A stretch of 32,031 bases of DNA from positions 1 to 32,031 of the forward strand of contig JALWKP010000167.1 of the NCBI GenBank assembly GCA_027081355.1, written 5' to 3'. Below the pieces are notes generated by a model that searched no databases, was not told the DNA's origin, and saw nothing but the letters and a program-made list of their open reading frames with translations. This DNA is from Campylobacteraceae bacterium (GTDB lineage: Bacteria; Campylobacterota; Campylobacteria; Campylobacterales; Sulfurovaceae). The translations under genes were made by a program, and so were the position numbers. The stretch's first letter is position 1, and every line of letters starts with the position of its first letter. Positions 1 to 15,691 of this stretch are shown here, piece after piece.

Positions 1-61
1 AACAGCAAAGAGGACTGTTTTAAATTAGAAAAGTTAGCAACCACCCTGACACCTTTTAGGT

Positions 62-103
62 GGCAGGCAAAGTATCCCCTTCAAGGGGTTTTCAATACCT
101 GCC
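62..103. repeat. Imperfect GC-rich hairpin near the left edge
   Basis: Arms GGCAGG (62-67) and CCTGCC (98-103) enclose GTAT/ATAC and a perfect inner stem CCCCTT (76-81) / AAGGGG (83-88). A second short hairpin with CCCC/GGGG arms follows at about 101-113. It lies just inside an element end at 120-187 and may be subterminal structure of that element or a terminator for something left of the window. No coding frame covers it. Confidence 0.5.
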
Positions 104-117
104 CCTTTGGGGTAGGA

Positions 118-184
118 TTTTTATTTAATTTCTGATACTTTCCTAGCATCATACTTTGGAACTAACTATTGTGCAGTGGTCTCT
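118..184. mobile_element. Right-end fragment of the same element family as the 15,487-15,651 MITE
   Basis: About 65 bp here match the right end of the MITE at 15,487-15,651 with only a few differences, ending in the same terminal sequence ACTATTGTGCAGTGGTCTCT. The matching left terminal repeat is not present between 1 and 118, so this is either the right end of a longer element that begins outside the window or a MITE whose left part has been replaced. No transposase frame is visible on either strand here. Confidence 0.65.
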
Positions 185-302: not shown

Positions 303-512
303 ATTGCCAAAAGATACCCGAGTGGCCGTATTTGCGTGAGTCGGCCCTAATAAGCCAACGGTGGGGGAGAGAGTAAGTCCTTAGGGGACAACTTCTCGCC
401 GGCATAGCCTAGCTCAAACGAAGCCATCCACTCACAGACTCAGCTACTAGTCCCCCTAAAGTTTATCTGTTGGACCCCCATATGCAATTTGGCGAACCAC
501 CCAGGCGACAAA
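303..512 (+). ncRNA. Candidate structured non-coding RNA, family not recognised
   Basis: A block of roughly 200 bases that is sharply richer in G and C than its surroundings, has no reading frame, and folds on paper into nested helices. These are 318-325 with 497-505 (imperfect closing stem), a side hairpin GGCCG 324-328 / CGGCC 342-346, GCCAA 354-358 / TTGGC 489-493, TGGGGG 362-367 / CCCCCA 475-480, and TTAGGGGAC 381-389 / GTCCCCCTAA 450-459, with a further-folded 60-base apex. Unpaired stretches between the last two helices give a central bubble. A rod with a bubble of this length is reminiscent of 6S RNA, but I cannot assign it. The hallmarks of RNase P RNA, tmRNA and SRP RNA were sought and not found. 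The strand is chosen from the promoter at 289-296. Confidence 0.5.
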
Positions 513-712
513 AGAAATTTGAATAGAACATAGCTATATTAAACTAACCTTAAATAAAAGAACTAATTTAATATTTAAAACTATATTTATAATTATAGCA
601 GATTTATTTGTAAAATTATATACTATTTTGGTAAAAATTACAAAAAATTTAAAACTTTTTCAAAAAAAGACCATTTTTGCGTAACTTTTGGAAAAAACAA
701 GTTTTTTCAATT
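513..712. other. AT-rich intergenic stretch, no gene seen
   Basis: About 200 bases of very AT-rich sequence with no supported gene. The only structure is a short A/T hairpin at about 690-710 (GAAAAAAC, 2-base loop, GTTTTTTC), which could act as a weak terminator for the RNA on the left or for hemD on the right. Confidence 0.4.
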
Positions 713-786
713 GAGAATTGATAATTGACAATGGATAATTCTCTCAATTCTAATTATCAATTATCCATTATCAATTGTCAATTATC
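713..786. repeat. Heptad-repeat hairpin, GATAATT family, overlapping the hemD stop
   Basis: The left arm is four consecutive 7-mers: GAGAATT, GATAATT, GACAATG, GATAATT (713-740). The right arm is five 7-mers of the reverse complement: AATTATC, AATTATC, CATTATC, AATTGTC, AATTATC (752-786). The register is exactly 7 bp throughout. The right arm supplies the last codons and stop (V-D-N-stop) of hemD, so the element is fused to the gene's 3' end. Confidence 0.85.
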
Positions 787-1413
787 CACCTCTTTCGCCT
801 TCAAAACGCATGCATCGATTGTTGCTTCGTCTGCTACATATGCATCGATTCCCTCAGGCAGTTTTTTTAATGTGCTTTTGCCGATAACCACCGCTTTGAA
901 GCTCTCTTGCCATTTAAAGCTTTTAAAAAAACACTCTATTGTAGATGGCGAAGTGAAGATTATTATGCTGTTTTCTTCTAAAACTTTATCTTTATACTCA
1001 ACGCAATTGGTTTCATAAATTATCTCTTCGCTTATATCAATTCCGTGGCTCTGCAAAAAGCTTTTGCTGTCAAACGATATAACTTTTGGGCGTATGTATA
1101 ATATTTTTCTATCGCTAAATTTTTCTAAAATATCGCTTGCCAGCTCTTTGCCGTAAAATTTTGCGGGGTAGTAAATATTTTTAGCGCCATACTCTTTAGC
1201 GGTTTTGGCAGTTGCCGAACCTACTGCTAAAATTTCTTTTTCCTGCCAGCCGTCGGCTATTTCATCACAGTAGTAAATCGCCTGTTTGGAAGTAAAAAGA
1301 AGAGTGTCGTAACCGCTTAAATCGAGCGAATCTTTTACTCTTTTAAATTTTATCATCGGCAAAGAGATTGTGCCGTTATATTTTTTGGGCGAACAGAGGT
1401 AAATTTTACTCAA
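778..1413 (-). CDS. hemD: Uroporphyrinogen-III synthase
   Basis: Closes hydroxymethylbilane with inversion of ring D to give uroporphyrinogen III, the common precursor of haem, sirohaem and cobalamin; cytosolic. The protein shows the two alternating Rossmann-like halves of the family, with the recognisable stretches TLLFTSKQAI, LAVGSATAKTA, ILYIRP, IIFTSPSTIE and AVVIGKSTL. The reading frame is open further upstream, but the best start is TTG at 1413: it overlaps the stop of the efflux gene by 8 bases, has the purine-rich AGGGGAAAGGAAG upstream, and gives 211 residues beginning LSKIYLCSPK, a normal family N-terminus. It is translationally coupled to the cation efflux gene. The last codons are contributed by an intergenic heptad repeat. 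Overall sequence conservation in this family is low, but fold and motifs fit well. Confidence 0.88.
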   Translation of the reverse strand: MSKIYLCSPKKYNGTISLPMIKFKRVKDSLDLSGYDTLLFTSKQAIYYCDEIADGWQEKEILAVGSATAKTAKEYGAKNIYYPAKFYGKELASDILEKFSDRKILYIRPKVISFDSKSFLQSHGIDISEEIIYETNCVEYKDKVLEENSIIIFTSPSTIECFFKSFKWQESFKAVVIGKSTLKKLPEGIDAYVADEATIDACVLKAKEVDN

Positions 1414-2347
1414 CTTTGCAACTTCCTTTCCCCTCGAAAAAGCGCACATTCTCTTCTTCGTCGTCGTGCGGGTCAAAATGAGGGTTTATTACCCACCCTT
1501 TATTCGGTTCAAGCGCAGTTATTTTGCAAATAATATCTTCTGCAATTTTATGGGCTTTTTCTATTGTCATTTGCGGGTCTAAAACCATATGAAACTCTAC
1601 AAAGTTATGAATACCGTCTGTCCTTGTTTTTAGCCAATGATACCCTTTTATCTCTTTATGGCTAGAGATAATCTCTCCGATTTTTGCAACTATATTGGCA
1701 TCTAAAGAGCGATCCATTAAAATCAAAATACCTTCGCTTATAATTTCGTAAGCCGAGTAAATAATATACCCGCCGATTGCCAAACCAAAAACCGAATCTA
1801 TAAAGTCAAGTCCCGTAATTGAAACCAAAAATAGCGCCAGTAAAACTGCACCGTTGCTTAAAAGGTCTGTTTTATAATGCAAGGCATCCGATTTTATTAC
1901 AATATTATCAGTCTCTTTGGCTATGCGCTCTAAATATTTAACCAATAAATAAGTTACCGCAATAGAAATTAGCATAACAACAACTGAAGCACCAAGCATT
2001 AAAGTGGGCTTTTTTTCTATAAGTTTATCTATCGCTTCATAAATAATATAAAGTCCCGAAATTGTAATAACTGTTCCTTCTATTACCCCAGCAATCGCTT
2101 GCAGTTTGCCTTTGCCGTATTGAAAAAGCCTGTTTGGCTCCTCTTCTGCCTTTTTAATAGCAAAAAAGTTAAAAACAGAAATTGCAGTATCTAAAATAGA
2201 ATCGATAGCCGAAGCCAATACCGCCACCGAACCGCTTAAAACCCCGATAACCAGCTTAACAATAGCAAGCATAACAGCCGTAGCCGTAGCAATTACCGTA
2301 GCACGCCGCTCTTTGGAAAAACCTTTAATTTTTGATAGAAAATCCAT
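1406..2347 (-). CDS. Cation diffusion facilitator, FieF-like metal/proton antiporter
   Basis: Inner-membrane exporter of divalent metals (Zn, Fe or related) driven by protons. At 313 residues it has about six hydrophobic segments and a cytosolic C-terminal domain. The intramembrane metal site of the family is intact: D49 and D53 in AIDSILD, and H157 and D161 in SDALHYKTD, matching the D-D-H-D order of FieF. The C-terminal domain carries the H-D-D-E-E-E stretch expected of a metal-sensing cytosolic domain. ATG start at 2347 with AAGGA upstream. It precedes and overlaps hemD, forming a two-gene unit; a metal exporter together with tetrapyrrole synthesis could reflect metal homeostasis, but that link is inference. 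The exact metal cannot be read from sequence. Confidence 0.9.
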   Translation of the reverse strand: MDFLSKIKGFSKERRATVIATATAVMLAIVKLVIGVLSGSVAVLASAIDSILDTAISVFNFFAIKKAEEEPNRLFQYGKGKLQAIAGVIEGTVITISGLYIIYEAIDKLIEKKPTLMLGASVVVMLISIAVTYLLVKYLERIAKETDNIVIKSDALHYKTDLLSNGAVLLALFLVSITGLDFIDSVFGLAIGGYIIYSAYEIISEGILILMDRSLDANIVAKIGEIISSHKEIKGYHWLKTRTDGIHNFVEFHMVLDPQMTIEKAHKIAEDIICKITALEPNKGWVINPHFDPHDDEEENVRFFEGKGSCKVE

Positions 2348-15486: not shown

Positions 15487-15651
15487 AGAGACCACCGCAC
15501 AATAGTAAGCCCAAATTACGGCACTATAAAATATCATAAATCAAAAAAATTCCTCTGGGCTTAGCTTTGGTTAGGCTTTCGAGTAATTTTGTTTAATTTC
15601 TGATACTTTCTAGCACCATACTTTTGAACTAACTATTGTGCAGTGGTCTCT
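15487..15651. mobile_element. 165-bp MITE with terminal inverted repeats and TTA target duplication
   Basis: The left end AGAGACCACCGCACAATAGT matches the reverse complement of the right end with a single difference over about 20 bases. Both sides are flanked by TTA (15,484-15,486 and 15,652-15,654), a 3-bp target duplication. The interior has no open frame. The right 65 bp recur at 118-184. The ends (GAGACC...GCACAAT) resemble those of some IS5-type elements, but the parent IS is not in the window. Confidence 0.85.
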
Positions 15652-15691
15652 TTAAGATGTTGAGCCCAAAAAGTATTAACCGCTTAAAAAA

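Follow-up and report, generated by a model that had tools for sequence, protein, structure and literature searches.

The window analysed here, a 32,031-nucleotide stretch of a contig from an uncultured member of the Campylobacteraceae, carries close to its first base a sharply bounded GC-rich island (GC 0.50-0.54 over positions 301-500 versus 0.11-0.30 in the windows just outside), with which no open reading frame of at least 60 amino acids was found to overlap. The island lies downstream of hemD, with remnants of two mobile elements on its other side; the contig ends at base 1, on the downstream side of the RNA that the island encodes. The principal features are as follows.

1-126, plus strand, right end of an IS200/IS605-type element
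119-184, MITE copy, right half only, cut by the insertion element and abutting its end
311-510, minus strand, body of the RNA, interpreted here as a 6S RNA gene (ends approximate, +/-10 nt)
778-1476, minus strand, hemD (Pfam HEM4, E 6.6e-34), an upstream neighbour conserved in relatives
1406-2347, cation-efflux gene, on the same upstream side as in relatives
about 15488-15653, MITE copy

Four further copies of the sequence at 1-126 are found in the genome, most of them where a contig ends (contigs C106, C7, C67 and C142), and because the C142 copy follows a reading frame that belongs by its match to the Y1 transposase family (PF01797), we assign the sequence to the terminus of an IS200/IS605-type element, which carries terminal hairpins. 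On the plus strand, the final codons of a TnpA-like frame (QQRGLF, stop) precede two GC-rich hairpins, and this repeated sequence probably accounts for the break in the contig. The MITE, about 165 bp long with terminal inverted repeats GAGACCACTGCACAATAGT, occurs dozens of times in the genome, in full or partial form. Neither element belongs to the RNA. The initial annotation had raised the possibility of a transposon-associated guide RNA, of the omegaRNA/HEARO kind, and the element end does lie only about 180 nt from the island; the island RNA and the transposase remnant, however, are on opposite strands, and the RNA does not accompany the element end at its other sites in the genome, returns no HEARO/omegaRNA match in Rfam, and is found phylum-wide as a single copy per genome that in relatives sits beside hemD, between that gene and purD. 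This set of observations renders a guide RNA so improbable as to be excluded in practice.

Rfam matches and relationship to 6S RNA

Scanning the window against Rfam (cmscan) yielded a single above-threshold match, to RF01069 (the "purD RNA motif"), at 447-316 on the minus strand (84.3 bits against a cut-off of 41, E 5.9e-15), which is also the only match to this family in the genome. The Rfam search proposed in the initial annotation thus returned a high-scoring known family, the outcome named there as grounds for withdrawing the label "unassigned", and no guide-RNA family. RF01069 is found as one match per genome in 139 of 150 genomes of the family and 143 of 150 of the phylum, and was absent from 14 control genomes.

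Work in Campylobacter jejuni provides the link between this motif and 6S RNA. In that species, the region upstream of purD gives rise to the most abundant non-coding RNA, a 185-nt transcript with a 6S fold and a 13-nt pRNA; a purine riboswitch proposed earlier at this position proved to be a shorter version of the 6S RNA, the Helicobacter pylori homologue sits in the same place, and both homologues make pRNAs (PMC3847290). We found no literature treating the "purD motif" together with 6S RNA, and the connection drawn here depends on that study. The geometry of the present locus is as in C. jejuni: RF01069 takes in the inner and 3' portions of the RNA, and the closing stem has its 5' strand about 60 nt beyond the match, on the upstream side. 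The RF01069 match thereby establishes homology to an RNA whose 6S nature has been demonstrated by experiment, with function taken from the published work on C. jejuni and H. pylori.

Consistent with this assignment, the Rfam 6S model (RF00013) aligns end to end, positions 1-187 of 187, at 510-311 on the minus strand when an 800-base region is searched at relaxed thresholds (29 bits, E 6.5e-4). This score falls below the gathering score of 46.4 bits, and a standard RF00013 search of this genome gave no match at E 0.001. Full-length RF00013 alignments were also obtained in the relatives L014 (36.9 bits), L015 and L005, and the shortfall likely reflects the reach of the model rather than a peculiarity of this gene: in contrast to the 6S (SsrS) RNAs of Escherichia coli and Bacillus subtilis, whose end-to-end alignment and architecture it shares, the Campylobacterota RNA is so diverged that none of the 101 phylum genomes searched reaches the gathering score. 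The standard 6S model therefore missed Campylobacterota 6S in every genome searched, and the RF01069 RNA fills an otherwise empty 6S slot. We considered the missing genome-level RF00013 match as evidence against a 6S identity and set it aside, as overruled by the RF01069 core and the architecture described below. Other sub-threshold Rfam matches nearby (Xist_exon1, MIR774 and other microRNAs, anti-hemB) appear to have arisen by chance on hairpin or low-complexity stretches.

Architecture and covariation

Folding of the island in isolation gave an equivocal result. The minus-strand fold is moderately more stable than shuffled sequence (z -1.98, with 11 of 200 shuffles as good) and the plus-strand fold is at shuffle level (z 0.02); given these values, fold energy alone is not decisive, and it is covariation that decides. 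Together, the data identify the minus strand as functional, with a true extent of about 510-309. Alignment of 38 homologues drawn from the family, including 12 from within the genus, reveals a conserved block with the following elements.

493-505, minus strand, closing stem, 5' strand (CCTGGGTGGTTCG); pairs with 328-317
317-328, minus strand, closing stem, 3' strand (CGGCCACTCGGG), supported by the same covariation test
457-492, minus strand, central bubble, 5' side, unpaired in the consensus, with conserved GGTCCAACA at 476-468
329-362, minus strand, central bubble, 3' side, with a small hairpin at 359-340 (GTTGGC...GCCGAC)
363-456, minus strand, terminal stem-loop (helices 2-5), with an apical hairpin at 413-398
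316-447, minus strand, RF01069 match, equivalent to the inner and 3' part of the RNA

This arrangement reproduces the plan of 6S RNA: a closing stem, an open central bubble with a hairpin on its 3' side and a long terminal stem-loop, within about 180-200 nt. An RNAalifold consensus of the 38 sequences contains 47 pairs, 23 of which show compensatory changes. When the named 6S structure is imposed on the same alignment, 96.1% of pair cells are paired and 25 of 46 pairs show two-sided changes, the latter amounting to 218 cells as compared with 69 in shuffles; not one of 500 shuffles attains the observed value of any of five measures, and pairing falls to 40-48% when the partners are slid as a control. 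The closing stem contributes 12 pairs, six of them compensatory, with 98.5% of cells paired, and the terminal stem-loop 19 pairs with compensatory changes. The hairpin of the 3' bubble (helix 6) is paired in 100% of cells; it and the ends of the closing stem vary so little that covariation is hardly informative there. The self-complementarity noted in the initial annotation, with its nested helices, is accordingly borne out in the closing stem (505-493/328-317), the four helix blocks of the terminal stem-loop (456-363) and the separate hairpin (359-340), as are the GC-rich, non-coding character of the island and, through the covariation analysis it had called for, one of its three guesses, a divergent 6S RNA. 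The remaining guess, something new, becomes unnecessary since the 6S identity fits.

We conclude with great confidence that the island is the bacterium's single 6S RNA gene, of the Campylobacterota type, read on the minus strand, away from hemD and towards base 1. Like the 6S RNAs of C. jejuni and H. pylori, it combines an RF01069 core with a closing stem, bubble and terminal stem in about 185-200 nt. It matches RF01069 over the full length of the model, above cut-off and once per genome; it departs from the Rfam entry in that the latter is typed as cis-regulatory and is confined to the inner and 3' portions of an RNA that in fact continues for about 60 nt more at its 5' side. RF01069, filed as a purD cis-regulator, should thus be read as the 6S RNA of the Campylobacterota.

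In established 6S biology, the RNA polymerase holoenzyme binds to the bubble as a mimic of an open promoter and is freed through synthesis of a pRNA (PMC9130861). The present RNA forms a long double-stranded rod whose open central bubble resembles a melted promoter; by analogy, holoenzyme carrying the housekeeping sigma factor would bind this structure and be sequestered until plentiful nucleotides allowed the polymerase to copy a short pRNA from the bubble and be released. The GGTCCAACA element (476-468), invariant in 38 of 38 sequences, is a candidate for the region that would serve as pRNA template. The invariant CCAAC of the 5' bubble (within 476-468) is also complementary to the invariant GUUGG of the 3'-bubble hairpin (359-355, minus strand), such that an alternative pairing between the two sides of the bubble is possible; both segments are invariant and show no covariation.

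Gene order and separation from purD

In most relatives, a cation-efflux gene, hemD, the RNA and purD follow one another on one strand, and in most of those with enough downstream sequence purD starts within about 200 nt of the RNA. This order, which is the usual one for Campylobacterota 6S genes, together with the classification of RF01069 as Cis-reg in Rfam, would favour a riboswitch-like leader of purD. The present genome (G000) does not conform to this expectation: purD lies on a different contig (C16), preceded by more than 4 kb of HNH, AAA ATPase and gyrA genes, and no RF01069 match was found near it on that contig. Within the genus, purD directly follows the RNA in G001, G059, G071 and G077, lies about 4 kb away in G031 and G040, and is located elsewhere in G012, G022 and G065 as well as in G000 (G048 and G054 gave no purD placement in the survey). 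The RNA is intact in all genus members surveyed, wherever purD lies, an observation that favours a free-standing RNA over a purD cis-regulator; genomes that keep the RNA after its separation from purD constitute a natural test against a role in the service of that gene. A purD leader is further disfavoured by the omission from the RF01069 model of the 5' strand of the closing stem, a stem backed by six covarying pairs, and by the finding that C. jejuni makes its 185-nt RNA as a separate transcript (PMC3847290). On this evidence we consider a cis-regulatory role very unlikely, and retain the 6S assignment.

Inspection of the regions around purD revealed that a two-gene AAA ATPase and HNH pair adjoins purD in the present genome (L053, 1283-3884, contig C16) and that the same pair lies between the 6S gene and purD in G031 (L049, 4893-7369). 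This pair corresponds to the PADLOC candidate system PDC-M62A/B, which is Septu-like. A related HNH gene is found downstream of the 6S gene in G040 (L045). These placements suggest that, in this genus, defence genes insert into the interval between 6S and purD. In the nearest named relative, Campylobacteraceae MAG M10_metabat2_scaf2bin.114 (L054 and L016/L050), whose HemD is 96% identical, the 6S gene lies away from hemD, at the end of another contig.

Promoter and 5' leader

In most other genera in which a promoter could be located, a TATAAT element ends 6-11 nt before the start of the closing stem, a spacing that would make the closing stem the start of the transcript, in the manner of a 6S gene. 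The initial annotation had placed a -10 box at the edge of the island. The only -10 element whose position is conserved in the present genus is instead TGCTATAAT at 600-592 on the minus strand, 86 nt upstream of the RNA body, and two features are predicted in this region.

592-600, minus strand, extended -10 promoter element (TGCTATAAT), with a predicted start near 585
529-585, minus strand, predicted 5' leader hairpin of a precursor

The element TGNTATAAT occurs 57-86 nt upstream of the body in all 11 genus members with enough upstream sequence, against a chance expectation of 0.6-2.9% per locus from dinucleotide shuffles. A displaced TATAAT, 27-36 nt upstream, is likewise seen in some members of genera g2 (L022, L148, L149) and g8 (L013, L124, L129, L140). 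In these lineages, as in the present genus (g1), a small inverted repeat or predicted hairpin lies between promoter and RNA body. The 80-nt leader of the present locus folds at -12.0 kcal/mol (z -3.1 to -3.3). Across loci, leader hairpins have a mean z of -2.0 compared with -0.9 for control stretches, a difference that is suggestive only, as the loci are related and two of the controls are themselves strongly structured.

The controls are noisy; a putative precursor with a hairpin leader is the simplest reading of the displaced promoter. We tentatively propose, as a model somewhat short of an even chance, that this genus and, separately, some g2 and g8 members make a 6S precursor from a promoter 27-86 nt upstream, with a 5' hairpin ahead of the closing stem that would either be removed by a nuclease or be kept as a protecting 5' domain, and that the gene has moreover lost its linkage to purD in this genus, at some loci through the insertion of defence-like genes. 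Unlinked from purD and with a likely promoter 86 nt upstream and a hairpin leader, the gene would differ in these respects from the Campylobacterota 6S genes of C. jejuni and H. pylori; it is otherwise a 6S RNA of known kind, only the leader being possibly, and modestly, variant. The apparent repeated gain of such a leader makes 6S maturation in the phylum a testable question.

A hairpin at this position also recalls Ms1, an RNA that shares the bubble architecture of 6S but binds core polymerase rather than holoenzyme, and that has an extra 5' hairpin (PMC9130861), as the leader predicted here would. Ms1, however, is about 300 nt long and actinobacterial, and the counterparts of the present RNA in C. 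jejuni and H. pylori make pRNAs (PMC3847290); we accordingly consider an Ms1-like mode of action very unlikely and favour the holoenzyme-binding 6S assignment. Further upstream, just downstream of hemD, an AT-rich long inverted repeat occupies positions 709-786, with 32-nt arms that are 88% complementary.
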